From assembly GCA_900498245.1 (NCBI GenBank), contig LS998015.1, positions 2,737,306 to 2,773,414 on the forward strand: a DNA stretch of 36,109 bases. Direction: 5' to 3'. The notes under the pieces were generated by a model. The model did no database searches and was not told the origin of the DNA. It saw nothing but the letters and a program-made list of their open reading frames with translations. The DNA is from Candidatus Zixiibacteriota bacterium (lineage in GTDB: Bacteria; Zixibacteria; MSB-5A5; GN15; PGXB01). The translations under genes were made by a program, and so were the position numbers. Positions 674-17,964 of the stretch are shown here, piece by piece (the stretch's first letter is position 1; each line of letters opens with the position of its first letter).

Positions 674-2038
674 TTATTTGGTTTTGTCGACCAATTTGTA
701 CCGTTCCAGTTTGCGGTAAAGGGTAGAACTGTCAATACCGAGCATCTCGGCCGCTTTCGATTTCTTTCCCTGGGCCTGATTCATAATGTAGTAAATATAT
801 GCTTTCTCTATCGACTCCAGGGTCGGAGTCTCGGGAGCATCTTTAGAGACAACCGAAACCGGACGATCCTCCGATAATTTAGCCGGAAATTCGGATAACT
901 CTATAGTTTGACTGTGAGAAAGAAGAACGGCCCGCTCGATGCAATTTTCCAGTTCGCGGACATTGCCGGGCCAATCGTATTTATGCAGAGCCTGCATCGC
1001 TTCAGGGCTTATCAATTTGGTCTCGACGCCGGTGCGACGGCAAAACAGGTCGACAAAATGGCGCGCCAGAATGGCGATATCTTCAGTCCTTTCCCGGAGG
1101 GCGGGAATATGAATAGGAATGACGTTCAGACGGTAAAATAGATCGGAGCGGAAACGGCCGCCTTTGACATCTTCCTCCAGTTCGGCGTTGGTGGCGGCAA
1201 TGAGACGGACATCGACCTCGACCGGTTTCGTATCTCCCACCGGAGTGAACGACTTATCTTCGAGGACCCGCAGTAATTTCATCTGGATAGCCGGGGAAGT
1301 ATTGCCGACCTCATCGAGGAAGAAAGTGCCGCCATCGGCGACCTTAAAGAGGCCGTCTTTATCTTTTATGGCGCCGGTGAACGAGCCTTTTTTGTATCCG
1401 AAAAGTTCCGATTCCAGAAGGGTCTCCGGCAGGGCGGCGCAATTGATGGTAACAAAGGGGCCGGCCGCCCGGTTGGAATAGGAATGGATGGCCCTGGCGA
1501 TCAGGTCCTTACCGGTACCGGATTCGCCGCGAATGAGGATGGTCGATTCGGTCCCGGAAACGCGCTGGACCAGCTTTTTGAGTTCGACAATTTCCTCGGA
1601 CTGTCCAATGAAGTTATCGAGTGAGAATTCGTGGCGAAGTTGCTTTTTGAGACTGTCATTTTCCTTTTTCAGTTTGCGCCGACTATTGGATTTTTCGATG
1701 ACCAGTTTGATTTCATCGACTTTGAACGGTTTGGTGACATAATCGAGCGCCCCCTCTTTCATCGCTTCGACAGCCGTATCGACGGAGGCGAAGGCGGTCA
1801 TAACGATGAAATCAATCTCGGGGCGGCGGCCCTTGATTTCTTTCAGGAGGTCGAGGCCGCTCATTTCGGGCATCATCAAATCGGCAATTATCAAATCATA
1901 ACTTTGGGCGGCGGCAAGTTGTACGGCTTCATACGGCGAAGTGGTCGTTTCGACTTTATATCCTTCCTTGGATAGAAATATTTCCATGAATTCGCACATC
2001 GATTGCTCGTCATCGACAACCAGGATTTTTCCGGACAT
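674..2038 (-). CDS. Sigma-54-dependent NtrC-family response regulator
   Basis: 454 residues with the complete three-domain layout. The receiver domain (1-120) has the acidic pair D9/D10, phosphoacceptor D53, T81 and K103. The AAA+ sigma-54 activation domain (about 142-375) has Walker A GESGTGKD (171-178), the sigma-54-contacting loop GSFTGA (218-223, a variant of GAFTGA) and Walker B FFLDEVG. A Fis-type helix-turn-helix at the end contains KSKAAEMLGIDSSTLYRKL. Phosphorylation of such proteins releases ATPase activity that opens RpoN promoters. The pilin-like gene downstream carries an RpoN promoter, so a PilR-like role is plausible; ZraR/AtoC-like is the alternative. No partner histidine kinase is in the window. 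GAGG lies 8 nt before the ATG. Confidence 0.93.
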   Translation of the reverse strand: MSGKILVVDDEQSMCEFMEIFLSKEGYKVETTTSPYEAVQLAAAQSYDLIIADLMMPEMSGLDLLKEIKGRRPEIDFIVMTAFASVDTAVEAMKEGALDYVTKPFKVDEIKLVIEKSNSRRKLKKENDSLKKQLRHEFSLDNFIGQSEEIVELKKLVQRVSGTESTILIRGESGTGKDLIARAIHSYSNRAAGPFVTINCAALPETLLESELFGYKKGSFTGAIKDKDGLFKVADGGTFFLDEVGNTSPAIQMKLLRVLEDKSFTPVGDTKPVEVDVRLIAATNAELEEDVKGGRFRSDLFYRLNVIPIHIPALRERTEDIAILARHFVDLFCRRTGVETKLISPEAMQALHKYDWPGNVRELENCIERAVLLSHSQTIELSEFPAKLSEDRPVSVVSKDAPETPTLESIEKAYIYYIMNQAQGKKSKAAEMLGIDSSTLYRKLERYKLVDKTK

Positions 2039-2213: not shown

Positions 2214-2996
2214 ATGCTCAAGAAACTGGAAGAGGCGCTGAATTTATATATTCGCCCGGGCTCGTTCCCCCTGGCGGTAAGAATGGTGAAGGAAGAGGAA
2301 AGGCTTTCCGAGAGGACCAAGCGGCCGCATCGGGATCTCAATATTCAGGTGGCGATCTGCCAGACTTTTTCCATCGCCCGGCGCTACGGCTGGCAAGTGG
2401 CGGTGGGAGCGGAAGATATCAATTGTCCCCTGGCGCTGACGGCTTTCGGATTCAAAGAGGAAATCGAGACTTTTTCCTGCGGAGAAATGTGCGCCGGAAT
2501 GTTTACGGAAACGAAATCGGCCGGGGCCCGGACGGAGGCGGAAGTGCCCAAGTTTTCGTTCCGGGAATATAAGTATGTTCTGGCGGCGCCGATCGGCCGG
2601 GCCGATTTTGTGCCGCATATCTATTTGATTTATGGAAATTCCGCTCAAATCATGCGGCTTATGACGGCGGTGCTCTATAAAGACGGCGGGTATTTGACCA
2701 GCCGCTTTTCGGGCCGTCTTGACTGCGCCGATATTTGTATCGAAACGATGCGGTCCGGAAAGGCGCAAATCATACTTCCCTGCTACGGCGACCGGGTATT
2801 CGGCCAGACGCAGGACGACGAAATGGCGATGGCGATTCCGGCCGGCAAAGAAGAAGAATTAATTGCCGGGCTGGAGGGAACGCATAAAGGGGGCATCCGC
2901 TATCCGATGCCGACATTTCTCCGATATACACCGCAATATCCCAAGCATTATTATAAATTGTTCGAAGGTTGGGAAAAGGAGGCGAAGACCAAGTGA
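2214..2996 (+). CDS. DUF169 family protein (COG2043)
   Basis: A 260-residue protein that I recognise as DUF169 from the N-terminal pattern YIRPGSFPLAVRMVKEEE and the later cysteine-containing segments (NCPLALTAFGF, FSCGEMCAGMF, LDCADICIE, IILPCYGDRVFGQTQDDEM). Function is not established for the family; members are common in anaerobes and methanogens. Several conserved Cys could bind a metal, but I cannot show it. Start choice: AGGAG at 2202-2206 is well spaced (7 nt) for the ATG at 2214, whereas the upstream in-frame TTG at 2208 lies only 1 nt past it. The stop codon overlaps the GTG of the next gene (GTGA), so the two are very likely co-translated. Confidence 0.8.
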   Translation: MLKKLEEALNLYIRPGSFPLAVRMVKEEERLSERTKRPHRDLNIQVAICQTFSIARRYGWQVAVGAEDINCPLALTAFGFKEEIETFSCGEMCAGMFTETKSAGARTEAEVPKFSFREYKYVLAAPIGRADFVPHIYLIYGNSAQIMRLMTAVLYKDGGYLTSRFSGRLDCADICIETMRSGKAQIILPCYGDRVFGQTQDDEMAMAIPAGKEEELIAGLEGTHKGGIRYPMPTFLRYTPQYPKHYYKLFEGWEKEAKTK

Positions 2997-3991
2997 AAAA
3001 GGGACTATCGCATCGCGAAAGAATTGCAGCCATTATGAAAGGGGAACGGCCCGATCGGCCGGCGGTGTCACTCTGGCGGCATTTTTATCACAGGGAAGCC
3101 ACAGCGGAAGGACTGGCGGAAGCGATGCTTGCATATCAGAAAAAATACGATTGGGATTTCATGAAGATAAATCCCCGGGCCAGTTATCATGTGGAGGATT
3201 GGGGAAACAATTTGGAATGGTCGCATGATGAATTCAAGAAGCACATTAAATTAAATTTTGCGGTCAAGCGACTGGAAGATTGGGAGAGCATAGGGATTTT
3301 GAATCCGACGGCCGGAGTACTGGGGGAGCACTTGAAGGCTATCAGATTAATAAGAAAAGGAGCGGGGATCGATTTGCCGCTATTCATGACAATCTTCTCG
3401 CCGATATCTATCGCCGGGGATTTGGTTCCCGACGGCGGAATGCTCAGCAAGCATCTCGGGGCCGCGCCGGACCGGGTGCTGGAGGCAATCCAAAACATAA
3501 CAATCACTTTCGAGCGATATGCCGCCGAAATTCGGAATGCGGGAGCGGACGGGATATTTTTCGCAACGACGGAATGGGCCTCGGCAGATGCAATGACATA
3601 TGAGAGTTATGAGGAATTGGCCCGACCCTTCGATCTCCGCATTCTAAAGGCCGCCGGCGACGGACTCAATATTTTGCATGTTTGCGGAAGCAATAATTTC
3701 TTGAAAGAATTGTCCGATTACCCGGCGCCCCTGGTCAACTGGGACGGCTGCAATCCGACCAACGCTAATCTTGACAGGGGGTTGGAGATGCTGACAGGAA
3801 AAACCGTGATAGGAGGAATCGACCATACAGGGTGGCTCCTGCGGGCAACGCCGAATGAAATCAGAAATGAAATCGCCCGTTTGAAAGAGCGATATGAGGG
3901 CAGGAAGGTAATATTCGGCCCGGGGTGTACTTATGAAGCGGCTGTACCCGAGAAAAATATCGCGGCATTAAGAGAGGAATTTGGCTGCTGA
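2993..3991 (+). CDS. UroD-superfamily protein, corrinoid methyltransferase (MtaA/MtbA)-like
   Basis: A 332-residue TIM-barrel protein of the uroporphyrinogen-decarboxylase superfamily. It lacks the N-terminal RQAGRY-type substrate motif of haem-pathway HemE. It does carry the H-x-C ... C zinc pattern of methylcobamide:CoM-type methyltransferases: HVCG (H229, C231) and Cys in FGPGCTY (C312), about 80 residues apart, as in MtaA/MtbA. It is therefore more likely to move a methyl group to or from a corrinoid protein or thiol than to make coproporphyrinogen. The GTG start at 2993 overlaps the DUF169 stop (GTGA) and follows AGGAGG at 2977-2982; an upstream TTG at 2969 would lie before that site. 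The substrate is unknown. The nearest cobalamin-binding proteins in the window are the mutase subunits, which are not methyl carriers. Confidence 0.8.
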   Translation: MKKGLSHRERIAAIMKGERPDRPAVSLWRHFYHREATAEGLAEAMLAYQKKYDWDFMKINPRASYHVEDWGNNLEWSHDEFKKHIKLNFAVKRLEDWESIGILNPTAGVLGEHLKAIRLIRKGAGIDLPLFMTIFSPISIAGDLVPDGGMLSKHLGAAPDRVLEAIQNITITFERYAAEIRNAGADGIFFATTEWASADAMTYESYEELARPFDLRILKAAGDGLNILHVCGSNNFLKELSDYPAPLVNWDGCNPTNANLDRGLEMLTGKTVIGGIDHTGWLLRATPNEIRNEIARLKERYEGRKVIFGPGCTYEAAVPEKNIAALREEFGC

Positions 3992-4002
3992 CGACAATTC
4001 TC

Positions 4003-4374
4003 TTATGGTTCGGGTGAAGCATCTCTTTTCGGGGAATTTTGAACTATCAAGAGTCTATCATCAGTAATCAGCAATCTTTCATATAGAGGGCGGGTATCAA
4101 GCGGCTGGCGGATGCCGATACATCCTTTTGTTCCAGGCACACCGCCGTCAGGATGAATCAGCAGACCGAAGCGATCAGTATTGAATTGGGGTATCAAACG
4201 GGCTTTCCAGCCAAAGCCGTGAAAATCAATCATCCCTTTCTCTTCAGTTAGTACGGGTCGCTGAATGAAATAGATTCCGTCGGGCAATGATCCTCTGCCC
4301 CACGGCCCGCTAACGGCGGGCCAAGATCCTCCGCGGGGGTCGATAAGGTTATTTTCGATCAATTTCCAGGACAT
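4003..4374 (-). CDS. Small L,D-transpeptidase-like (HPDGG-PGTxGCIG motif) protein
   Basis: A 123-residue protein whose centre reads GLLIHPDGGVPGTKGCIGI (H74, C85). This His...GxxGC arrangement resembles the catalytic site of YkuD-type L,D-transpeptidases and especially the DUF2778/Tlde1 branch, where the His and Cys are also close together. Preceding segments PDGIYFI and FHGFGWKARLIP fit the beta-rich fold. No signal peptide or membrane segment is visible, so how it would reach peptidoglycan is unclear. AAAGGAGGAG directly precedes the ATG, a very strong ribosome site. It converges on the methyltransferase-like gene (11 nt between stops). Immunity or secretion partners of an effector are not evident nearby. 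Confidence 0.65.
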   Translation of the reverse strand: MSWKLIENNLIDPRGGSWPAVSGPWGRGSLPDGIYFIQRPVLTEEKGMIDFHGFGWKARLIPQFNTDRFGLLIHPDGGVPGTKGCIGIRQPLDTRPLYERLLITDDRLLIVQNSPKRDASPEP

Positions 4375-5938: not shown

Positions 5939-6334
5939 TTATTCTTCTTCCAACTCAATCAGGACATTTGAAAATGACGACGGGTGCACGAAGGCAATCT
6001 TATGCCCTTCGGCGCCAATGCGAGGAATCTGGTCGACCAGACGGAACCCTTTGCTTTTAAGTTCTTCAAGTTTCCGATCGATATCGGGGACTTTTAAAGA
6101 AATATGATGTAAGCCGCCGCCCCGGTCATTGACAAATTTCTGTATGGGACTTGCGGAATCGGAGGAAGCGATGAGTTCAATATTTCCTGAAGCGGTTTTA
6201 AACAGGGCCAATTTGATTTTCTGCTCCGGCAGATCCCGGACCAGCCGGGGCGGTGCTCCGAGAAGTTCGGTATAGAGACGGATAGATTCATCCAAGTCCC
6301 GGACAGCGATGGCGGCATGGGAAAAGGCAATCAT
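5939..6334 (-). CDS. mce: Methylmalonyl-CoA epimerase
   Basis: 131 residues, the normal size for this vicinal-oxygen-chelate enzyme, which interconverts (2S)- and (2R)-methylmalonyl-CoA between propionyl-CoA carboxylase and the mutase. Two beta-alpha-beta-beta-beta modules are visible: FSHAAIAVRDLDESIRLYTELLG and GLHHISLKVPDIDRKLEELKSKG. Candidate metal ligands are H6, E53, H76/H77 and E127 (LIELE). The start is taken at the ATG giving MIAFSHAAIAV, 4 nt past the lipoprotein stop; the longer upstream reading is just the end of the lipoprotein gene in another frame. It is the last gene of the acyl-CoA block. Confidence 0.93.
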   Translation of the reverse strand: MIAFSHAAIAVRDLDESIRLYTELLGAPPRLVRDLPEQKIKLALFKTASGNIELIASSDSASPIQKFVNDRGGGLHHISLKVPDIDRKLEELKSKGFRLVDQIPRIGAEGHKIAFVHPSSFSNVLIELEEE

Positions 6335-6338
6335 ACTT

Positions 6339-6836
6339 TTATTGACCCCCGGTCGCCGAGTCATAGGCCCTTTTAGCCTGCAAATACTCTTGTTCTTGTG
6401 TCCAGTTGGAGAAGAAAGGACGAATCCATTTGCCGAGATCACGATACAGTTTCAAGTTCGCGGGTTTCTCTTTAAGAGATCCGTCGACGGATTCGATCTT
6501 AACGCGAATGTGAGCGACGGCGGAATCTCCAAATAGCGAAATACTGTCAATTTCGAGTCCGGGGACGGAATCAGCGGACATTTTTCTTACCGCATTCATT
6601 TCCAGAAAATCAGATAAGGATTTATCCATTTTATAATAGGCAAATTCATTGTCATAGATAACAGTCTTATCCCCTTCATGAAGACGCATGAAAGCCTCGG
6701 TCAGGGTTTTTCGAATGGCCGCTTTGTCGGTTTCATCGGAAGAAGCAGAAGCCGCCCCCCCCGTCTTCTTTTCCCCGGCACACCCGGACAAAACAACCAG
6801 CACAATCATAACGAGTGAAAAATATTTAATTTTCAT
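6339..6836 (-). CDS. Small lipoprotein of unknown function
   Basis: 165 residues. The signal [21 protein letters not shown] has a clean lipobox (LSGC, Cys19), so it should be lipidated and membrane-anchored. The rest is soluble and mixed alpha/beta: a helix ([20 protein letters not shown]) followed by strands ([21 protein letters not shown]). That is reminiscent of NTF2/SnoaL-like cone folds, but I cannot assign a family. GGGGAG lies 7 nt before the ATG. The start overlaps the end of the mutase gene by 11 nt and its stop is 4 nt before the epimerase, so it is co-transcribed with central CoA metabolism despite having no obvious metabolic role. Confidence 0.8.
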
Positions 6837-8394
6837 GATATTCTCCCCAGATTTGGCGAAGGGTATCGGAAATTTCGCCCACGGTGGCGTAATGCTCGAC
6901 GGCCTCAATGATCGGATATACCAGGTTGGTGCGAACAAGGGCGGCTTTATTTAATTTTTCAAGAGCTATCTTAACAGCCCCCGAGTCACGCCGCTTTCGA
7001 AGGGCACGTAATTTTTCAATCTGCATGTTTTCCAGAGTCGGATCGACCTTTAAAATATCGGGAATGGAGGCGGTCGGTGTGGAGAACCGATTGATACCGA
7101 CAATTACAGTTCGGCCGGACTCAACTTCCTTTTGAAATTTGTAGGCCGAACCGGCGATCTCATTTTTAAAGAATCCGGATTCGACGCACTTGACGGCTCC
7201 GCCGCGGCGGTCAATTTCAGCCAGCAGTGCGAGAATGTTCTTCTCCAATTGATCGGTAAGATACTCAATGAGATAGGCCCCTCCAAGAGGATCGACGGAA
7301 TCGGCCGCGCCGGATTCGAAGGCCAATATCTGTTGGGTGCGGAGCGCAATTTCGGCGGCCTTCTCGGTCGGAAGGGCCAGAGCCTCATCGAACGAATTGG
7401 TGTGCAGGGATTGAGTTCCGCCGAGGACGGCGCTCAGCGCCTGGAGAGTGGTGCGGATTATATTGTTTTCCGGTTGCTGAGCGGTGAGAGTGGAACCGCC
7501 GGTTTGAGTATGGAAACGAAGCAAGAGTGATTTTTCGGATTGCGCGCGGAATTTCTCTTTCATGATATGCGCCCAGATGCGGCGTGCGGCCCGAAACTTG
7601 GCAATTTCCTCGAATAAATTATTATGGGCCGCGAAAAAGAAAGACAGACGGGGGGCAAAATTATCGATATCCAGTCCGGCCGCCAGGGCCGAGTCGACAT
7701 AGGCAATGGCATCGGCCAGAGTAAAGGCGACTTCCTGAACGGCGGTAGCTCCGGCTTCCCTGATATGATAACCGGATATCGATATGGTGTTGAATTGGGG
7801 CAGATGCTCTTTGGCGTAAGCAAAAATGTCGGTGATGATTCGCATCGACGGTTCCGCCGGGAAAATATAGGTACCGCGAGCGATGAATTCTTTGAGAATA
7901 TCATTCTGGATGGTACCGGAAATCTTCTCGGGCGGAACGCCCTGTTTTTTGGCGGTAACGATATACATCGCCAGAAGAATCACGGCGGTCGCATTGATGG
8001 TCATGGACGTGGAGACTTCGCCGAGCGGAATCGAGTCAAAGAGCCGTTCCATATCTTCAAGAGAATCGATAGCGACGCCGGTCCGACCGACCTCGCCGCG
8101 CGCCATAGGATGATCGGAATCATAGCCGATTTGTGTGGCCAGATCAAATGCAACCGATAGGCCGGTTTGTCCCTGCGACAGAAGGTAGCGGAAGCGGCGA
8201 TTGGTCTCCTCGGCAGTCCCGAAGCCGGCATACTGGCGCATGGTCCAGAGTCTGCCCCGGTACATATCTTCATATATGCCGCGAGTATAGGGATATTGGC
8301 CGGGGTGTTCCAATGGTTCTGATACGGTCGGAGAGGAATCTAAGAAAAGAGGGATCTCGATATCGGAGGTGGTTTTCTTTTTTTGGGCCATCAT
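6826..8394 (-). CDS. mcmA: Methylmalonyl-CoA mutase, catalytic (large) subunit
   Basis: 522 residues covering only the TIM-barrel half of the enzyme; the cobalamin-binding domain is absent and must come from a separate subunit. It catalyses (2R)-methylmalonyl-CoA to succinyl-CoA. Substrate signature: RQYAGFG (Y55) and ARGTYIF (R173) match Tyr89 and Arg207 of the Propionibacterium enzyme, which bind the free carboxylate. SGYHIREAG supplies the catalytic-site His (H210). The start ATG overlaps the biotin-carrier stop (ATGA), a second ATG follows at once, and its end overlaps the lipoprotein. Neighbours (propionyl-CoA carboxylase upstream, epimerase downstream) fit this assignment. Compare the paralogue at 15168-16841, which has a different signature. 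Confidence 0.93.
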
Positions 8395-8909
8395 TCAAAT
8401 TCCAGCAATTTTTCATTTTTGTCGACGGCCCGTCCTGGCCCGACAAAAATTTCTTTGACGCGCCCGTCGGCAGAGGCCCGGATAATATTTTCCATTTTCA
8501 TCGCCTCAATAATAAGCAGGGTCTCCCCTTTCCTGACCGTATCGCCCGGCCGGACGGCAAGAGAGAGAATCAGACCCGGCATCGGCGCCCGGATGATTTT
8601 TTCTTTGACAATACCCAAGGCGAGCCCGGCCCGTTTTTTCAAATCGGCCAGATTGTACGGTTCAACGGTAACATTCACATCCTTGCCTTCCAGAAATAGA
8701 TCCAGATGGTCGCCGTTGCGGTTGATATCGACTTCGGAGGTGGTCTCATTAATTTTAAAAAGGAATTTCCGATCGGTCAATTTCTCGGCTTCAACGCGAT
8801 ATTCCACTCCATTGGAATTGACAACAAATATGGATTCCTGTTTGGATAGGGTCAGGTCGAATTCCTTGTCATCGACAGTGACAATATATCTTTCTTCGGG
8901 GTTCGACAT
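8391..8909 (-). CDS. Biotin carboxyl carrier subunit of acyl-CoA (propionyl-CoA) carboxylase
   Basis: 172 residues. The C-terminal 75 form the biotinyl domain: [18 protein letters not shown] and the biotinylation motif EAMKME with acceptor Lys138. The N-terminal ~95 residues are beta-rich ([36 protein letters not shown]) and resemble the barrel part of the BT domain, which in PccA joins biotin carboxylase to the carboxyltransferase. The protein carries CO2 as carboxybiotin between the biotin carboxylase (3 nt upstream) and the carboxyltransferase subunit. Its stop overlaps the mutase start by 4 nt. AAGG in the preceding stop region serves as ribosome site. Confidence 0.9.
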
Positions 8910-8912
8910 AAA

Positions 8913-10442
8913 CTAGCCTTTATCAATTCGTTTGAGGGCCGACTGACGATAGAAACGAACCCAGCTGTTCGGACTCTCGGACCGACGTTTCATGGTCAAA
9001 GAAACTTTTCTCCGCTCCAGATAATCGTAAACGACGGCGGCCAGCGCGGCCCGCTCGGAGGGGTCATCAAGGGGGCATTTAAAGACCCGGTTAGGAAAGG
9101 CGGAATCGATATAACCGGTGGAGTATTGCCCGAGGCGGAATCCGGAGGAACGTATGACAGAACAGGCAAAACCGATGGTGGTATGCAGACCGGAAATGCG
9201 GTATTCGGTCAGAGCCCGTTCGCACCGCTCCAGAGCCTCTTCCCGGTCCCGTCCCCAGACGACCAACTTGGCGATGATCGGGTCATAGTAGATGGCAATT
9301 TCGGAGCCGGACACGACGCCGGAATCAACCCGTATCCCTGGGCCGGCCGGTTCGCGGTATTCCGATATGGTGCCGGTAGACGGCAGGAAATCCTGATGAG
9401 GATCTTCGGCATATATACGGCACTCAATGGCATGGCCGTGCGGCCGGATACTCTCCTGACGGAATGACAGCGGGGCACCTTCGGCGACGCGAATTTGTTC
9501 GCGCACCAGATCCAGCCCGGTGACCATTTCGGTGACCGGATGCTCGACCTGCAAGCGGGTGTTGACTTCGAGAAAATAGAACTTGAGATCGGAATCAACC
9601 AGAAACTCGACCGTCCCGGCCCCGAGGTAGCCGGATTCACGGGCCAGATTGACGGCGGCTTCGCCCATTTCGCGGCGCAGTTCCGGGGTCATGATGGGCG
9701 ACGGCGATTCTTCGATAACCTTCTGGTGGCGCCGTTGAATGGAGCATTCCCGTTCGCCGAGATAGACTGCATGGCCATGACCGTCGGCAAAAATCTGAAT
9801 CTCGATATGGCGGGGATTATGGAGATATTTTTCGAAATAGACGCGGCCATCGCCAAAAGCGGCTCCGGCTTCGCGGATGGCGGAAGCGACTGATTCCTGA
9901 AGTCTTTCTTCGGATTCGACGACTCTCATCCCCTTGCCGCCGCCGCCGGCGGCCGCTTTGACCAGGATGGGAAAGCCAATGGCACGGGCCTTTTCGCTTA
10001 CATGACTCAAGTCTTTATTATCAAAATCGGTTCCCGGCACAACCGGCAAGCCTGCTTTGAGGGCAACGCGACGGGCTTCGAGTTTATCGCCTAAAAGGGC
10101 GATGGTCTCGGCGCGCGGGCCGATGAAAATGATTCCGTTGTCTTCACAGAGTCTGGCGAAAGAATCATTTTCCGCCAGGAAACCGTAGCCGGGATGAATG
10201 GCATCGACACCGGCCTTTTTGGCGACATCGATAATATTTTTCTGATTGAGATAACTGTCTTTGGCGGGAGCCGGGCCGATATAGTAGGCCTCGTCGGCGA
10301 GCCGGACGTGATAGGCGGTTTTGTCAATTTCGGAGTAGACGGCAACAGAGGTAATGCCGGCATCGCGGCAAGCTCGGATGACGCGGATGGCGATTTCGCC
10401 GCGGTTAGCAATGAGGATTTTTTTAAATTTATTTGTAGACAT
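8913..10442 (-). CDS. Biotin carboxylase subunit of acyl-CoA (propionyl-CoA) carboxylase
   Basis: 509 residues with the AccC/PccA biotin-carboxylase layout. It opens KILIANRGEIAIRVIRACRD, has the ATP-grasp glycine loop KAAAGGGGKGMR, then EIQIFADGHGHAVYLGERECS and the active-site segment FLEVNTRLQVEHPVTE. It uses ATP and bicarbonate to carboxylate biotin. It is about 60 residues longer than plain AccC; the extra C-terminus (YDYLERRKVSL...NSWVRFYRQ) looks like the helix that opens the PccA BT domain, suggesting that domain is shared with the next subunit. No clear Shine-Dalgarno precedes the ATG. An AT-rich gene separates it from the carboxyltransferase gene, and it has its own promoter candidate. 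Confidence 0.93.
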   Translation of the reverse strand: MSTNKFKKILIANRGEIAIRVIRACRDAGITSVAVYSEIDKTAYHVRLADEAYYIGPAPAKDSYLNQKNIIDVAKKAGVDAIHPGYGFLAENDSFARLCEDNGIIFIGPRAETIALLGDKLEARRVALKAGLPVVPGTDFDNKDLSHVSEKARAIGFPILVKAAAGGGGKGMRVVESEERLQESVASAIREAGAAFGDGRVYFEKYLHNPRHIEIQIFADGHGHAVYLGERECSIQRRHQKVIEESPSPIMTPELRREMGEAAVNLARESGYLGAGTVEFLVDSDLKFYFLEVNTRLQVEHPVTEMVTGLDLVREQIRVAEGAPLSFRQESIRPHGHAIECRIYAEDPHQDFLPSTGTISEYREPAGPGIRVDSGVVSGSEIAIYYDPIIAKLVVWGRDREEALERCERALTEYRISGLHTTIGFACSVIRSSGFRLGQYSTGYIDSAFPNRVFKCPLDDPSERAALAAVVYDYLERRKVSLTMKRRSESPNSWVRFYRQSALKRIDKG

Positions 10443-10447
10443 ATAAT

Positions 10448-10521
10448 ATGCTGATTTATATGGTAAAAAGTAGTCAGATTAAATCAATACTATCCATCTT
10501 TTAATATAAATTCGTCAGCAT
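10448..10521. repeat. Long interrupted inverted repeat flanking the biotin carboxylase promoter
   Basis: ATGCTGATTTATAT (10448-10461) and ATATAAATTCGTCAGCAT (10504-10521) are reverse complements apart from a 4-nt insertion (TTCG as read on plus). They lie 42 nt apart. The second arm overlaps the promoter spacer, so it could be a paired operator or the remnant of an insertion. Confidence 0.5.
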
Positions 10522-10529
10522 TTTGGCAA
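10501..10529 (-). promoter_or_regulatory. Sigma-70-type promoter candidate for biotin carboxylase
   Basis: On minus, TTGCCA (10529-10524, 5 of 6), a 17-nt spacer and TATTAA (10506-10501, 4 of 6). The predicted start near 10494 would leave a leader of about 50 nt. It lies in the AT-rich gap after the inserted small gene. Confidence 0.45.
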
Positions 10530-10540
10530 TTAATAAGGTA

Positions 10541-10927
10541 TTAAGTGCCATTTTTTTTTGCAGAATCTATGCACTTGCCACAATAAATATTACCATCGTA
10601 TTCAAATGTATCCATGAATATTGAAAATTCACGGCCGCAAAGAGCACACCTCTTTCCAATTGCTTGGCCATTTGCTGAATACGTTTTCGAGCTAGATTCA
10701 GTTAATAAATCCGCATTATTGCTTCTCATTCGTTGATCTTCGGAATTGGGCATCCCTGCACTAGCTATTAATCCAAAAATTCCAAAAAATAAACCCAACG
10801 AAAACCAGACTACTTGATCTCGTCCCTTTGCTTTTGCAACAACAGCTGACAAGATTCCACATGACGCGGCCTGTATCCCCAAGAAAATCCAAAAGGCAGT
10901 TTCGAACCATTCAGGTGAACCGAACAT
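10541..10927 (-). CDS. Small membrane protein with C-terminal zinc ribbon, unknown function
   Basis: 128 residues. Two hydrophobic helices (FWIFLGIQAASCGILSAVVA and VVWFSLGLFFGIFGLIASA) are separated by the short basic loop KAKGRDQ, a motif common in small uncharacterised membrane proteins. A Ser/Asn-rich linker follows, then a four-Cys zinc site (C94, C97, C116, C119; CALC...CGKC). Base composition is visibly AT-richer (about 40% G+C by eye) and codon use differs from the flanking carboxylase genes, suggesting later insertion into the operon. GAGGG lies just before the ATG and a TATAAA box lies 12 nt upstream of the start codon, so it may have its own promoter. I do not recognise a function. 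Confidence 0.7.
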   Translation of the reverse strand: MFGSPEWFETAFWIFLGIQAASCGILSAVVAKAKGRDQVVWFSLGLFFGIFGLIASAGMPNSEDQRMRSNNADLLTESSSKTYSANGQAIGKRCALCGREFSIFMDTFEYDGNIYCGKCIDSAKKNGT

Positions 10928-10970
10928 TTTACCCTCACACTTTATAAAATGCCTTACTCATTTGCATTTC

Positions 10971-12521
10971 TTACAGCGGAATATTGCCATGCTTCTTGGG
11001 CGGGTTGGAATCCTTCTTGGTGGCAAGCATCTCGAAGGCCCGGATCAGCCGGCCGCGCGTGGTTTTCGGCTCGATAACATCATCGACATATCCGTGCGCG
11101 GCGGCAATGAACGGATTGGCGAATTTGTCGCGATACTCCTCGGTCTTCTGAGTCAGTTCGGCTTCGGGGTCGGCGGCCTTATCGATATCTTTCTTGAAAA
11201 TGATTTCCACCGCACCTTTGGGCCCCATAACGGCGATTTCGGCGGTCGGCCAGGCGTAGTTGATGTCGCCGCGGACATGCTTGGAGTTCATAACGTCGTA
11301 CGCTCCGCCATAGGCCTTGCGCGTAATGACGGTGACTTTCGGCACGGTTGCCTCGCAATAGGCATAAAGCAATTTGGCGCCATGTTTGATTATACCGCCG
11401 TGCTCCTGATCGGTGCCGGGCAAAAAGCCGGGGACATCTTCGAAAGTCAGAATCGGGATATTGAAAGCATCACAGAAGCGGATAAACCGGGCGGCCTTGA
11501 TGGACGACGCAATGTCAAGAACCCCGGCCAGCACCGCCGGCTGATTGGCGATAATTCCAACGGAACGGCCGCCGAGACGACAGAAGCCGATGACAATATT
11601 GGCGGCGTAATCGGGCTGAATTTCCAGAAATTCGCCATGATCAACGATATGGTGAATGACATCTTTTATGTCATATGATTTATTGGGATTATCAGGGACA
11701 ATAGTGTTCAATTTGTCATCTTCACGCTCGGCGGGGTCGGTGGTTTCATGAAAAGGCGGGTCCTCGAGATTATTCTGGGGGATATAACTCAATAATTTTC
11801 TGAGAGTGCTGATGGCGTCGGCTTCGTTCTCGCAGGCAAAATGCGAGACGCCCGATTTAGAGGAATGAACAACGGCGCCGCCAAGTTCCTCTGAGGTGAC
11901 AATTTCGTGGGTCACGGTTTTGACAACATTCGGCCCGGTGACAAACATGTATGATGTATTTTTCACCATCAAAATAAAATCGGTAATGGCCGGACTATAA
12001 ACCGCGCCGCCGGCACAGGGGCCGAGGATGACCGAAATTTGCGGGATGACTCCGGAGGCCAGAGTGTTGCGGAGGAATATGTCGGCATAGCCGCCGAGAG
12101 AAACAACGCCCTCCTGAATGCGGGCCCCGCCGGAATCGTTAAGACCGATGACCGGCGCGCCGACCTTCATCGCCATATCCATGATTTTGCAGATCTTGGC
12201 GGCGTGCGCTCCGGAAAGAGAACCGCCGAAAACGGTAAAATCCTGAGAAAAGACGAAAACCTGGCGGCCATCGATGGTGCCGCAGCCGGTAACGACGCCG
12301 TCGCCCAATATTTTTTTATCGGCCAGCCCGAAATCGGAACTGCGGTGGGTGACAAACATATCGAACTCTTCGAAGGAATTTTTATCGAGAAGAAGTTCGA
12401 GCCGTTCGCGGGCAGTCAGTTTTCCTTTTTCATGCTGGGATTCGATGCGGTCGGGGCCGCCGCCGAGGCGGGCCTGATTGCGCATTTCATCAAGTTTGCG
12501 AAGTTTTTCTTCAAGAGACAT
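10971..12521 (-). CDS. pccB: Propionyl-CoA carboxylase carboxyltransferase (beta) subunit
   Basis: 516 residues, normal for acyl-CoA carboxylase beta subunits, with two crotonase-like halves. Oxyanion-hole regions are visible as [13 protein letters not shown] / [14 protein letters not shown] / [12 protein letters not shown] in the N half and [19 protein letters not shown] / [11 protein letters not shown] in the C half. Asp409 in GGAYDVM matches the residue (Asp422 in Streptomyces PccB) that favours propionyl-CoA over acetyl-CoA. It transfers the carboxyl group from carboxybiotin to propionyl-CoA, giving (2S)-methylmalonyl-CoA. No obvious ribosome site precedes the ATG. It follows the MBL hydrolase gene by 50 nt and is split from its partner subunits by the AT-rich small gene. 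Confidence 0.93.
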
Positions 12522-12571
12522 ATGGATAATCAGATATTGCGGATTTGATGAATCAAACCCCTGCTAATTTG

Positions 12572-13405
12572 TTATTCGATTTTATGTACCAGAATTTTCC
12601 CCTCTTTGTCTTCCAGGCGGCCGATTTTGATTTCGGTATCATGATCAAAAGCAATGGCCATATTGTCATGCAAGAGCCGTTCGACCAGTTTCCGTTTGAC
12701 GGCCATCGTGGTCAACGGGTCGAGATCGACCGCGGCCACATAGGGAATGCGAATATGGTATTGCGACGGAACGATATCGGCGTAATAAACCACCGTATGA
12801 TTTTCCGACGAGATTTCCACCCCCTGATGACCCGGGGTATGCCCGCCGGTGCGGACAACTTTAATGCCGGGCAGAATGTCAGTATCGCCGTCGACCAATT
12901 CCAGTTGTCCGGCATTCTGCAGGACCATCAAACGATCGACGATATAGACCGCGGCGGTCCGTTCGTTGGGGTGAACGGCGTCATCCCATTCCATCTTTTG
13001 CACAAAATATTTCGCTGTCGCGAACCGGGGGACCATCTGACCATTCTCATTTTTGACGGCACCGGCGGCGTGATCAGTATGGAGATGGGTTAAAATGACA
13101 TAATTGATGTCATTGGTACCAAGGCCGAATTGCTTCAAGGATGATTCAATAGTTGTTTCTCCGGAAGCGGCGTAGATTTTTTTCTCGCTCGGAGTAATGC
13201 AATCGCCGAGACCGGTATCGAGGAGAATATTGGTGCCATTGGCCCGGACAAGGAAGAGATTGGTTTCCATCTTGATGAGATTATTCTCATCGGACGGCAT
13301 CAATTTGCCCCAGATTTTTTTGGGGACAACACCGAACATCGACCCTCCGTCGAGCATAAATCGCTGCTCGACGAAGGGTAATATTTCAAAACGGCCAAAT
13401 TTCAT
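12572..13405 (-). CDS. Metallo-beta-lactamase-fold hydrolase
   Basis: 277 residues with the HxHxDH di-zinc motif THLHTDHAAG (H107, H109, D111, H112) and further likely ligands in GGHTPGHQG and YYADIV. The closest style is the lactonase/quorum-quenching-like MBL group (NLFLVRANGTNILLDTGLGD near the N-terminus). The substrate cannot be read from sequence. It sits 2 nt after the acyl-CoA dehydrogenase stop and before pccB, so a role as a CoA-thioester or lactone hydrolase in this pathway is possible but unproven. Confidence 0.85.
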   Translation of the reverse strand: MKFGRFEILPFVEQRFMLDGGSMFGVVPKKIWGKLMPSDENNLIKMETNLFLVRANGTNILLDTGLGDCITPSEKKIYAASGETTIESSLKQFGLGTNDINYVILTHLHTDHAAGAVKNENGQMVPRFATAKYFVQKMEWDDAVHPNERTAAVYIVDRLMVLQNAGQLELVDGDTDILPGIKVVRTGGHTPGHQGVEISSENHTVVYYADIVPSQYHIRIPYVAAVDLDPLTTMAVKRKLVERLLHDNMAIAFDHDTEIKIGRLEDKEGKILVHKIE

Positions 13406-13407
13406 TG

Positions 13408-14553
13408 TTATCTCAGGTAATTCCCGGCAATGACCAGGCGCTGGACCTCGGATGTTCCTTCATAGATTTCTGTAACCCGCTGGTCGCGGTAGAGTTTCTC
13501 GATAATCGAGAATTCGCCAATATAGCCGTACCCGCCATGAATTTGCATCGCTTTATCGACACAGAGACTGGCGGCTTCGGTAGCGAATAGTTTGGCCTGC
13601 GCCGCCTCGACGCCGAATTTTTCGCCCTTGTCCTGCAACACGGCGGCTTTGTAGGTTAAAGCGCGGGCGGCCTCGACCTGAGTGGCCATATCGGCGATCA
13701 TCCACTGAATCGCCTGCAATTTTCCGATCGGCTGACCGAAGGCGATACGGGTTTTGGCGTAGTTTATTGATTCGTCAAGGGCGCGCTGGGCCAGACCGAC
13801 ACCCTGCGCCGCGACGCCGATCCGGGCGCCGTCGAGAGTGGCCATGGCATAGCGGAAGCCCTTGCCGATTTCGCCCAACTGGTTCTTGATCGGGATGCGG
13901 TAATCTTTCAGTTCGATCCGACCGGTGGTGGCGGCCCGCATACCCATTTTGTGCTTGAGGGTGAAGCCTTTGAAACCGGGCAGATTGGCCTCGATGATGA
14001 TGGCGGAAACCTTGGGACGCTCCGTGGCCTCTTCGCCGATGCGGCAGAAAAGAACGGCGACATCGCAGGCGTCGCCATGCATGATGAAAATCTTCTCGCC
14101 GTTAATGACGAAATGGTCGCCATCTATACGGGCAATAGTCTGCTGATTGGCGGCATCGGAGCCGGCCATACGTTCGGTCAGGGCAAAGGCCGGGATCGAT
14201 TCGCCGGTGGTGCATTTCGGCAGGTATTTTTTCTTCTGTTCATCATTGGCGAAATGGATGATGGGATAGACGGCCAGTTCGGGCACGGCCGCCAGAAGAG
14301 CGGTGGCGGCATCCCAGTAGGCCAACTCTTCGATAAGGGTGATATATTCGATATTGGAGAATCCGCCGCCGCCGTATTCTTTCGGCATGGCAAAACCGAT
14401 CAAACCGGCCTTGCCGAGTTTGCGGTAATAATCAACGGGAAATTTTTCTTCTTTCCGGTCAAGGTCCTTGAAAACCGGGTTGATTTCCTTCTCGGCGAAT
14501 TCTTTTACACGGTCCCTTACAGCCTGCTGTCTTGGATCGACATTATATCTCAT
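13408..14553 (-). CDS. Acyl-CoA dehydrogenase
   Basis: 381 residues, the usual size of short/branched-chain acyl-CoA dehydrogenases. It has the FAD/substrate motif ALTERMAGSDAA (family LTEPxAGSDA), then AFGQPIGKLQAIQ, the IHGGYGYI signature and a catalytic base Glu365 in YEGTSEVQR, the position of Glu367 in short-chain enzymes. It oxidises an acyl-CoA to the 2-enoyl-CoA and hands electrons to an electron-transfer flavoprotein (not in window). Next to an isobutyryl-CoA-type mutase, butyryl-CoA or isobutyryl-CoA is the likely substrate. GGGAGGAG just before the ATG is a strong ribosome site. Confidence 0.93.
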   Translation of the reverse strand: MRYNVDPRQQAVRDRVKEFAEKEINPVFKDLDRKEEKFPVDYYRKLGKAGLIGFAMPKEYGGGGFSNIEYITLIEELAYWDAATALLAAVPELAVYPIIHFANDEQKKKYLPKCTTGESIPAFALTERMAGSDAANQQTIARIDGDHFVINGEKIFIMHGDACDVAVLFCRIGEEATERPKVSAIIIEANLPGFKGFTLKHKMGMRAATTGRIELKDYRIPIKNQLGEIGKGFRYAMATLDGARIGVAAQGVGLAQRALDESINYAKTRIAFGQPIGKLQAIQWMIADMATQVEAARALTYKAAVLQDKGEKFGVEAAQAKLFATEAASLCVDKAMQIHGGYGYIGEFSIIEKLYRDQRVTEIYEGTSEVQRLVIAGNYLR

Positions 14554-14583
14554 TTCTCCTCCCGAGATATGGGGTTGTACCTG

Positions 14584-14602
14584 CGACGGCTAAAGCCGGT
14601 CG
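14584..14602. repeat. Small hairpin in the gap before the acyl-CoA dehydrogenase
   Basis: CGACGGCTAAAGCCGGTCG folds as CGAC-GGC / GCC-GTCG with a TAAA loop and one bulged G. It lies between the cobalamin-subunit stop and the dehydrogenase ribosome site. There is no T-tract, so it is not an obvious terminator. It may be a dispersed palindrome or an mRNA processing site. Confidence 0.4.
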
Positions 14603-14610
14603 AAGGGAAG

Positions 14611-15030
14611 TTAAATTATTTTTTCGTCACGTTGGCGTTTGGCGACGGCGTTACGAAGATAGTTGACGGTTTCTTCGGTGGTGGCTCCGGGGGTAAACAG
14701 CTTATCCACTCCGATTTTCTCGAGGGCCGCCACATCTTCATCGGGGATAATTCCGCCCCCGAAAAGTATGATGTGCTCGGCTTTCTTTTCCTTGAGAAGA
14801 TTGAGGATGGCCGGGAACAGGGTCATATGGGCGCCGGACAGGATGGAGACACCGACGGCATCGACATCTTCCTGTATGGCGGCATTGACAATATTCTCGG
14901 GCGTCTGCCGCAGACCGGTATAGATGACTTCGAAGCCGGCATCGCGGAAGGCGGCGGCAATGACTTTGATTCCCCGGTCGTGGCCGTCAAGCCCCGGTTT
15001 CGCCAAAAGCACTCTGATTTTTTCGGACAT
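14611..15030 (-). CDS. Cobalamin-binding small subunit of acyl-CoA mutase (IcmB/McmB-like)
   Basis: 139 residues forming a stand-alone B12-binding Rossmann domain. It begins [14 protein letters not shown] with the DxHxxG motif (D15, H17, G20; His17 is the lower axial cobalt ligand). It continues with [11 protein letters not shown] (SxL motif) and [13 protein letters not shown] (GG motif). It is the partner that mutase large subunits without their own B12 domain require. It lies directly downstream of the isobutyryl-type mutase (137 nt gap). No other B12 domain is in the window, so it may serve both large subunits. No clear Shine-Dalgarno precedes the ATG. Confidence 0.9.
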
Positions 15031-15073
15031 AAGGTTTTTCTATTTTGGTTTTTAATTATCTCATCATACAGAT

Positions 15074-15121
15074 GTCGGGTTTCTCACTCACTCCTTGCAT
15101 TCGTTCGTATCGAGACCCGAC
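15074..15121. repeat. Imperfect inverted repeat in intergenic gap
   Basis: GTCGGGTTTCTC (15074-15085) pairs with GAGACCCGAC (15112-15121), with two bulged T. It fills the gap between the two mutase-subunit genes, with a 26-nt loop region and no T-tract. The left end ATGTCGGG is shared with the hairpin at 24051-24073, which hints at a dispersed palindromic repeat. Confidence 0.5.
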
Positions 15122-15167
15122 CTACAAACTCATTTCATTCGCCTATCTCGGAACCAGACCCATAAAT

Positions 15168-16841
15168 CTATATAATCGGCGGTTCGATGTACTCACCGAA
15201 AATCGGGCGCAGGGTATCGACAATTTCGCCCTCGGTGGCATAAACCCGAACACAATCAAGCATCGCCTTGAGCGTGTTGCCGTTTCCCTTGGCGGCGACG
15301 GCGAGATCGTCGAGGGTCCGTTTCACTTTGTCATGATCGCGACCGGCCTTTATTTTCTTGAGCGATGCGACCTGCTCGCGCTCGACGGTTTCATCGATTT
15401 TCAAAATCGGAATGGTGATGACTTCATCTTCCATGACATAGTCATTGATGCCGACGATAATCCGCTCACCGCGCTCGATTTCCTGCTGATAGCGGTAGGC
15501 GGCGCGGGCGATTTCGCGCTGGAAATAGCCCTCGTCGATACATTTTAGAACCCCGCCGCGGCGATCGATTTCCTCGAGATATTTTTCAGTGTCGGCTTCC
15601 ATCTTGTCGGTCATCGCTTCCACAAAATAGGAGCCGGCCAGGGGGTCGATAGTATTGACGACGCCGGTCTCATGGGCGATTACCTGCTGCGTGCGGAGGG
15701 CGATGAGGGCGGCTTTGTCGGAGGGAAGGGCCATGGTTTCATCCATCGAGTTGGTGTGGAGCGATTGCGTCCCGCCCATCACAGCCGCAAGGGCCTCCAG
15801 TGCAGTGCGGACGATATTATTTTCCGGCTGTTGGGCGGTCAGCGAGCATCCGGCGGTCTGGGTGTGGAACCGCAGGAGCCAGTTGCGTTCGTCCTTGGCT
15901 TTATATTTATCGCGCATGCGGCGGGCGTAAATCCGCCGGGCGGCGCGGTACTTGGCAATTTCTTCAAAGAAATCCTGATGGGCATTGAAAAAGAAGGAGA
16001 GCCGGGTGGCAAATTTGTCGATATCCTGGCCATCGGCAATGGCGGCCTCGATATAGGCGAAACCATCGGCCAGCGTGAAGGCCAATTCCTGGGCGGCGGT
16101 CGAGCCGGCTTCGCGGATATGATAGCCGGAAATGGAAATGGTGTTCCACTGCGGGACGTGATCGGTGCAGAAGGCCATCAGGTCGGTAATGAGCCGGATC
16201 GATGGCTGGGGCGGGAAAATCCATTCCTTCTGGGCGATATATTCCTTGAGAATATCGTTCTGAAGAGTGCCACGCAGTTTGGAGAACGGGATATTCTGTT
16301 TCTCGGCTACCGCCAGATACATGGCCAGCAAGATCGAAGCGGGAGCATTGATGGTCATTGAGGTGGAGACCTCACCCAGATTGATGCCATCAAAAAGGAC
16401 TTCCATATCAGCCAGAGTATCCACGGCCACCCCGCATTTGCCAACCTCGCCGAGCGAACGAACATGGTCGCTGTCGAAGCCCATCAGGGTGGGGAGGTCG
16501 AAGGCAACCGAGAGGCCGGTTTGACCGTGATTCAGAAGATAATGATAGCGTTGATTGGTCTGGCGGGGAGTGCCCATGCCGGAGAACTGGCGCATAGTCC
16601 AGAGGCGGCTTCGGTACATGGTGTGATGAATTCCCCGGGTATAGGGAAACTCGCCGGGAAGACCGAGTTTTTCATTATAATCAAAGTCTTTAAGATCTTC
16701 AGGGGTAAAGAGCTCTTTAACCTCATCGCCGGAAACCGTAATGAAGCGCGGCCGGGATTTGACCTGCCGCAGTTTCTCGGCTTTCTTCTCCCAGTTTTTC
16801 TTTTTTTCGTCCAGACTCTTCAGGACATCTTTCTCAAACAC
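15168..16841 (-). CDS. icmA: Acyl-CoA mutase large subunit, isobutyryl-CoA-mutase type
   Basis: 557 residues, homologous to the mutase at 6826-8394 but with different substrate-pocket residues: RQFSGMG (F86 instead of Tyr) and AQKEWIF (Q204 instead of Arg). These are the Phe80/Gln198 pair that distinguishes isobutyryl-CoA mutase from methylmalonyl-CoA mutase. The conserved active-site His is present (H241, SGYHIREAG). LSVAFD has Ala (A113) where 2-hydroxyisobutyryl-CoA mutase has Asp. It likely interconverts isobutyryl- and butyryl-CoA with coenzyme B12. A basic N-terminal extension of about 50 residues precedes the barrel. The start is GTG, with GGAG 7 nt upstream and a promoter behind it. 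The B12 subunit follows downstream. Confidence 0.88.
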   Translation of the reverse strand: MFEKDVLKSLDEKKKNWEKKAEKLRQVKSRPRFITVSGDEVKELFTPEDLKDFDYNEKLGLPGEFPYTRGIHHTMYRSRLWTMRQFSGMGTPRQTNQRYHYLLNHGQTGLSVAFDLPTLMGFDSDHVRSLGEVGKCGVAVDTLADMEVLFDGINLGEVSTSMTINAPASILLAMYLAVAEKQNIPFSKLRGTLQNDILKEYIAQKEWIFPPQPSIRLITDLMAFCTDHVPQWNTISISGYHIREAGSTAAQELAFTLADGFAYIEAAIADGQDIDKFATRLSFFFNAHQDFFEEIAKYRAARRIYARRMRDKYKAKDERNWLLRFHTQTAGCSLTAQQPENNIVRTALEALAAVMGGTQSLHTNSMDETMALPSDKAALIALRTQQVIAHETGVVNTIDPLAGSYFVEAMTDKMEADTEKYLEEIDRRGGVLKCIDEGYFQREIARAAYRYQQEIERGERIIVGINDYVMEDEVITIPILKIDETVEREQVASLKKIKAGRDHDKVKRTLDDLAVAAKGNGNTLKAMLDCVRVYATEGEIVDTLRPIFGEYIEPPII

Positions 16842-16870
16842 AATATTCTCCAGGATTAATTTAGAATTTT

Positions 16871-16899
16871 ATATTAATATTTTTCCGCCCAAAAATCAA
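16871..16899 (-). promoter_or_regulatory. Sigma-70-type promoter for the acyl-CoA mutase operon
   Basis: On minus, TTGATT (16899-16894), a 17-nt spacer and TAATAT (16876-16871), within an AT-rich gap. Transcription would start about 23 nt before the GTG. No cobalamin riboswitch signature was found in the 166-nt leader region. Confidence 0.55.
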
Positions 16900-17007
16900 G
16901 GCCAATCGGGGATAAAAAGAGTCCGAAAAACCCTTTTCAATCATCCCCTTACAGGTTTTCCATAAAGATATTACGCCTCAAAGAGCCGGGCCGACAGATA
17001 ATTCGGA

Positions 17008-17964
17008 TTACAGGGAACGGGAGTGAGTCGAAGAAATTTCGCGGAGCAGGTTTTCACCGACGGTGAAGGGATCGCTCTTGCCCTCGTAGATATCGGAGAT
17101 TATGCGATCCAGATCGGAAATACGATTTATCTCCTGCCGGATAAGATTATTGAAATGAAATTGCATGACGCCGAATAGTTTATTTTTTATCTGCTCGCGG
17201 CGATGTTTTTCAAATAAGCCGGACGATTTTATGTACCCCAGATGAGAATCGATTTTTTCCAGAAGCCGGTCAATATTTTTATTATTCACCGCCTCGGTCG
17301 CCACGACGGGAAGGTCCCAATCGATTTTTTTCCGTTTCATTTCCAGAACCATATTGAGTTCGGCGACGATATTTTCCGAGCCGGGACGATCGGCTTTGTT
17401 GATGGCGAAGATGTCGGCGATTTCCATCAATCCCGCCTTCAGGGCCTGTATGGCATCGCCCGATTCGGGGACCAGCACCACGACGACAGTATCACAGGTA
17501 TCGACAATGTCCAGTTCCACCTGGCCGACGCCGACGGTTTCGATGAGAATATAATCAAAGCCAAAAGCATCAAGGGCGGTGGCCACATTGCCGGTGGCGG
17601 CGGCCAAGCCGCCGGAGGAACCACGGGTAGCCATGGAGCGGATATAAACGGATCCATCGGTCGGCATATCGACCATTCTTATGCGGTCGCCCAAAAGGGC
17701 GCCGCCGGTGAAAGGTGAGGTCGGGTCAACGGCGATAATGCCGATACGGTGACCGCGGGCCAGGAGGAGACGGGCGATGTTATTGACGAGCGAGGATTTT
17801 CCGGCGCCGGGGGGGCCGGTAAAGCCGATTTTGACGGCTTTGCCGGATTTGGGGTAGAGGCGGGCTAGAACGTCGCGGTATTTATCCTGACGATCTTCGA
17901 TAATTGTAATTATCCGGGCCAGTGCGCCCTGGTCGCCGGAGAGGAATTTTTCAAGTACAGTCAT
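17008..17964 (-). CDS. meaB: Methylmalonyl-CoA mutase-associated GTPase MeaB (ArgK family)
   Basis: 318 residues of the G3E P-loop GTPase family. Walker A is GPPGAGKSS (50-58), with AVDPTSPFTGGALLGDRIRM (switch I/base region), IETVGVGQ (switch) and the NKxD guanine motif INKADRPG. MeaB loads adenosylcobalamin into, and protects, B12-dependent acyl-CoA mutases. It sits immediately upstream of the mutase genes and could serve both paralogues. It starts 8 nt after the recJ stop with only a weak AGGCGA ribosome site, so it is probably translated from a recJ-meaB message. Confidence 0.93.
   Translation of the reverse strand: MTVLEKFLSGDQGALARIITIIEDRQDKYRDVLARLYPKSGKAVKIGFTGPPGAGKSSLVNNIARLLLARGHRIGIIAVDPTSPFTGGALLGDRIRMVDMPTDGSVYIRSMATRGSSGGLAAATGNVATALDAFGFDYILIETVGVGQVELDIVDTCDTVVVVLVPESGDAIQALKAGLMEIADIFAINKADRPGSENIVAELNMVLEMKRKKIDWDLPVVATEAVNNKNIDRLLEKIDSHLGYIKSSGLFEKHRREQIKNKLFGVMQFHFNNLIRQEINRISDLDRIISDIYEGKSDPFTVGENLLREISSTHSRSL

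Follow-up and report, generated by a model that had tools for sequence, protein, structure and literature searches.

The UroD-superfamily protein encoded together with a DUF169 protein in the genome studied here carries a predicted MtaA-type zinc site, and its subfamily is uncharacterised. We tentatively propose that this protein, hereafter termed UroD, is a zinc-dependent, thiol-directed methyl or small-alkyl transferase, that homocysteine is its likely acceptor, that it acts beside a protein resembling type II fRMsr and that DUF169 serves as an accessory. The pairing of the DUF169 and UroD genes is real and old, yet not obligatory. If the role in homocysteine metabolism holds true, it would constitute an undescribed zinc route for methionine recovery in a phylum known mostly from metagenomes, and members of the UroD subfamily, at present likely annotated as uroporphyrinogen decarboxylases, would need a new name.

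Organization of the DUF169-UroD gene pair

The window, i.e. the whole stretch of 36,109 nucleotides analysed, stems from a 3.5 Mb genome of Candidatus Zixiibacteriota (Zixibacteria; G000) that is available as a single contig and is 98.9% complete. The gene for the 260-aa DUF169 protein (PF02596/COG2043; positions 2214-2996, plus strand) is followed on the same strand by that for the 332-aa predicted MtaA-like zinc protein UroD (2993-3991). Just as the original prediction had it, stop and start codons overlap: the GTG start of the UroD gene (2993-2995) and the TGA stop of the DUF169 gene (2994-2996) share the tetranucleotide GTGA (2993-2996), and a ribosome-binding motif for UroD, AAGGAGG, can be read from the sequence at positions 2976-2982, where the DUF169 gene has not yet ended. 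An ATGA overlap is found at the same junction in three relatives (L043, L053 and L054).

A gene for a sigma-54 response regulator of the NtrC type (674-2038, minus strand) is oriented divergently from the pair. Most loci of families f1 and f2 show the same arrangement, so the regulator may share a promoter region with DUF169 and UroD. On the other side, an open reading frame for 123 aa (4003-4374, minus strand) contains a YkuD-like HPDGGVPGTKGCIGI motif and is without a Pfam match; the sister genome (L043) also has such a reading frame directly 3' of UroD.

UroD resembles MtaA and differs from HemE

URO-D (PF01208) is the sole Pfam match of UroD at E ≤ 0.001 (103 bits, cut-off 23.9, E = 2e-29) and places the protein in the UroD superfamily; PF01717, the family of MetE and core methionine synthase, gave no match. 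The nearest NCBIfam models are those for MtaA, MtbA and CmuA, but with 72, 55, 53 and 43 bits against curated cut-offs of 244, 400, 235 and 600 UroD falls outside these families, and its identity to MtaA/MtbA is only about 20%. When aligned with MtaA (PDB 4ay7) by phmmer, LHVCG of UroD pairs with LHICG and GPGC with APGC, and the aligned HxC and Cys positions are those that bind zinc in Methanosarcina MtaA. The corresponding residues of UroD, His229-Val-Cys231 (codons at 3677-3685, plus strand) and Cys312 (3926-3928, plus strand), are predicted zinc ligands: His229, Cys231 and Cys312 are 100% conserved among 55 orthologues, and alignment and conservation together thus point to a His-x-Cys ... 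Cys site of the MtaA type.

The fold agrees with this assignment. An AlphaFold2 model of UroD (pLDDT 92) retrieved MtaA 4ay7 as the best match in the PDB (TM 0.81, E = 9e-18), a TIM barrel like UroD, followed by HemE (TM about 0.8) and then MetE. In the model, the HxC motif begins within strand 227-230 and extends just beyond it, and Cys312 directly follows strand 306-310, as would be expected for the active site of the barrel. Despite the similar fold, UroD is clearly set apart from uroporphyrinogen decarboxylase. Alignment with the organism's own HemE revealed that UroD lacks the MRQAGRYLPEY segment and that HemE has Y, K and H where UroD has His, Cys and Cys; the NCBIfam hemE model did not match UroD at E up to 1. 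HemE is encoded separately at position 2956169 of the genome, and this clear HemE is the only other URO-D protein of the organism. The earlier view that the partner of DUF169 possesses MtaA/MtbA zinc ligands rather than HemE features is therefore upheld.

Within the UroD superfamily, His-Cys-Cys zinc sites are directed at sulfur or selenium, while O-demethylases substitute carboxylates (PMC10418091), and this disfavors O-demethylation by UroD. The Mlp proteins of type 1 MGCs likewise belong to the UroD superfamily, have a His-Cys-Cys zinc site and are proposed to perform methyl chemistry on sulfur or selenium (Kountz and Balskus, PMC10418091). Since zinc-site type and fold are the same as in SCMTs and Mlps, and genes for B12-dependent methylmalonyl-CoA mutase exist in the organism, UroD might be conceived as a Mlp-like, corrinoid-dependent S- or Se-demethylase whose corrinoid protein is encoded elsewhere. 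We regard this as rather improbable. Type 1 MGCs encode both a corrinoid protein and a RACE activase (PMC10418091), whereas neither was recognised beside UroD in any of the loci laid out. The methyl-corrinoid cap domain PF02607, present in 83 of 132 Zixibacteria genomes, is undetected in the complete genome G000, which speaks against a corrinoid methyltransferase system as judged by this partner, and the scores of UroD far below the MtaA/MtbA/CmuA cut-offs point in the same direction. The locus also differs from those of MtaA/MtbA, the methylcobamide:coenzyme M methyltransferases, in the absence of methanogenesis genes and in its bacterial host. That the module comes without a corrinoid protein of its own, as originally suggested, thus holds for the vicinity and, as far as PF02607 is concerned, for the entire genome.

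An fRMsr-like GAF protein is the steadier neighbour of UroD

Directly 3' of UroD, 40 of 57 loci, spread over most of the phylum, encode a GAF protein of 150-165 aa, often with an overlap of 1-4 bp (-4 or -1). It matches the type II fRMsr Ta0848 from Thermoplasma (phmmer E = 2.5e-27), and both fRMsr cysteines are invariant with a spacing of 24, the same as between Cys60 and Cys84. Type II fRMsr requires two catalytic cysteines, the roles of which we adopt from the literature (PMC6211008). Judged by GAF fold and cysteine spacing, the usual neighbour of UroD in the relatives would therefore be a type II fRMsr that keeps both catalytic residues, and it is a steadier partner of UroD than DUF169. 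Linkage of UroD and GAF genes was not found outside Zixibacteria.

The family to which the window belongs differs in that the GAF gene is missing at the UroD site, the nearest such gene being unlinked; a relative of this kind is present in 12 of 15 genomes and could be a paralogue. The unlinked copy in G000 encodes both cysteines and is located near genes for a thiol peroxidase-like protein (Tpx), ferritin, CMD, a flavin reductase, Rrf2 and a CysK-like protein.

This oxidant-defence neighbourhood bears on a further explanation, namely that UroD is a zinc-thiol transferase acting on a non-methyl electrophile in detoxification or thiol alkylation. Epoxyalkane:CoM transferase, a MetE-like enzyme, sets a precedent for such a substrate, the His-Cys-Cys site could serve any thiol alkylation, and a methyl donor is not evident in G000, where neither MTHFR nor PF02607 is detected. 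We nevertheless deem it unlikely, because in other families the genes directly upstream of UroD belong to methionine and one-carbon metabolism: a bifunctional homocysteine S-methyltransferase/MTHFR at seven loci and what is presumably SHMT, recognised as such from its sequence, at two, all of them in deeper families. In one genome (G010), two PF01717 MetE-like genes reside in the same run as UroD. As the UroD genes of relatives adjoin genes for methionine repair and synthesis, UroD may handle methionine sulfur in a manner not described so far, instead of being one half of a dedicated two-protein enzyme. The defined set of DUF169, UroD and fRMsr-like GAF genes together with upstream homocysteine methyltransferase/MTHFR narrows the search for a substrate to methyl-sulfur chemistry.

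A possible role of UroD in homocysteine methylation

PF02574 (MetH/HMT/BHMT), PF01717 (MetE) and PF02219 (MTHFR) gave no match in the complete genome G000, and a search with PF01053 yielded weak generic PLP matches only, i.e. no detectable homocysteine-forming PLP enzyme. S-adenosylhomocysteine hydrolase (AhcY), on the other hand, is present, so homocysteine should arise in an organism without a known enzyme for its remethylation; PALP enzymes of the cystathionine beta-synthase type are possible. UroD is the obvious zinc-thiolate candidate for this remethylation, and we infer a homocysteine methyltransferase function from the combination of genomic context and gene absences. UroD is not a simple replacement for methionine synthase, however, as it is not enriched where the known synthases are missing (11 of 18 such genomes versus 79 of 114 others, p = 0.59). 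Nor did DUF169 mark genomes without methionine synthases (4 of 19 versus 7 of 71, p = 0.24).

In the reaction that we propose, the TIM barrel of UroD would hold Zn(II) through His229, Cys231 and Cys312, and the metal would bind and deprotonate a thiol, most likely homocysteine or else another thiol related to methionine, which would then attack the methyl donor. UroD would thus act in methionine recovery beside the type II fRMsr-like protein. DUF169, co-translated with UroD in Zixibacteria and losable, would be an accessory; most likely it is of a cysteine-rich, metal- or redox-binding kind and either provides or shields the donor or the zinc thiolates.

A much bolder version would have UroD found a family of folate- and corrinoid-independent methionine synthases that remethylate homocysteine where known synthases and MTHFR are lacking, with DUF169 as the methyl-donor partner, on which UroD would rely as MesD does on DUF1852. 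It draws on an analogy, for which no homology is claimed, with the core methionine synthase formed by MesD and DUF1852 (MesX), in which a zinc methyltransferase works without folate or B12 partners beside a DUF protein (PMC7857596). MesD is an aerobic enzyme of the MetE type (PF01717), and DUF1852 and DUF169 are different families. We give this version very little credence; were it true, it would provide the first function for DUF169.

On the minus strand of the window, a methylmalonyl-CoA/propionyl-CoA cluster extends from 5939 to 17964 and comprises genes for a glyoxalase-family (epimerase-like) protein, two methylmalonyl-CoA mutase large subunits, biotin carboxylase, carboxyltransferase, acyl-CoA dehydrogenase and MeaB. 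The cluster implies that adenosylcobalamin is used.

DUF169 is an old but dispensable companion of UroD

The DUF169 protein is a safe member of its family (PF02596, 173.8 bits versus a cut-off of 27, E = 5.6e-51). Several cysteines had been noted as conserved-looking, and four are indeed invariant in 62 sequences of the subfamily from several phyla: Cys49, Cys71, Cys171 and Cys190, with codons on the plus strand at 2358-2360, 2424-2426, 2724-2726 and 2781-2783, respectively. In the AlphaFold2 model (pLDDT 93) each of them is located at or next to the N-terminus of a helix. Sequence comparison with the PDB gave no match, a fold search with the model gave none at E up to 0.001 and no clear relative in the PDB, and the best Z score of a VIA search, 5.3, falls within the background described for the tool, so that it reveals no relative and does not establish a new fold either. 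A second DUF169 protein encoded in G000 is about 20% identical to that of the window. The subfamily is widespread, with orthologues also in Acidobacteria, Chloroflexi, Planctomycetes, Bacilli and in MAGs of Deltaproteobacteria/Desulfobacterales. In the literature consulted, DUF169 is mentioned no more than incidentally, and a description of the pair with UroD was not found. The pairing offers a testable entry into a family that is without known function and that occurs, for example, in relatives of Bacillus and in methanogens.

Among 132 Zixibacteria genomes, 90 contain a UroD orthologue and 20 an orthologue of DUF169. All but one of the latter also have UroD (p = 0.004, relatedness not corrected), and in 16 of the 19 genomes with both genes the two are adjacent, often overlapping; of the 16 spacings measured in relatives, 13 fall between -11 and +45 bp. 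In two further genomes the genes are separated by a few hundred to about 1,100 bp, and in one they are on different contigs. The adjacency is older than one genus. These figures are what would be expected if DUF169 and UroD formed one dedicated two-component enzyme for methyl transfer or demethylation, the model originally put forward. This model appears quite unlikely, though, given that 71 of the 90 UroD-bearing genomes do without a DUF169 orthologue, that the DUF169 subfamily mostly occurs without UroD and that in one genome (G003) DUF169 directly precedes the GAF gene in the absence of UroD. Conservation of the gene order, proposed as a check at the outset, was seen within Zixibacteria; UroD was not found next to DUF169 in any of the neighbourhoods outside the phylum that could be laid out.

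Of 50 DUF169-bearing genomes outside Zixibacteria, 13 possess a UroD relative, and none of the ten loci inspected had it beside DUF169. The neighbourhoods laid out there gave no constant neighbour and no coherent pattern, and feature Lgt-like, NUDIX-like, SAM methyltransferase-like and sugar-isomerase-like genes; for 16 to 20 of 80 DUF169 loci, neighbours were judged solely from UroD/GAF profile matches, among the matches listed. Incoherence of this kind would suit the notion that descent alone keeps DUF169 and UroD side by side without a shared function, DUF169 simply riding in the operon, and so would a single origin of Zixibacterial DUF169, which is not rejected (p-AU 0.59). We consider this notion improbable because the two genes stay together even at 41-50% UroD identity, where their surroundings are entirely different, ranging from response regulator and pilin genes in families f1 and f2 to Nuo-like and RimP-like genes in f7 and Mla-like genes in f19. 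On the UroD tree the presence of DUF169 changes at least eight times. Although gains are not told apart from losses, an old DUF169-UroD order that was lost repeatedly would account for this pattern. We retain DUF169 as a putative accessory of UroD.

Three loci outside the phylum, two of them from Desulfobacterales (L139 and L192, bin239) and one from Anaerolineae (L193), encode UroD relatives (profile E = 1e-121 or better) without GAF or DUF169 neighbours. Within Zixibacteria, one UroD orthologue (G074, L068) is interrupted by a single in-frame TAA, indicating a pseudogene or a sequencing error. In another genome (G114), the UroD gene is split into two parts that are about 1.5 Mb from each other on a single contig (L101 and L102), the N-terminal part adjoining a homocysteine methyltransferase gene and the C-terminal part a GAF gene; the split marks either a join made in assembly or the breakpoint of an inversion.
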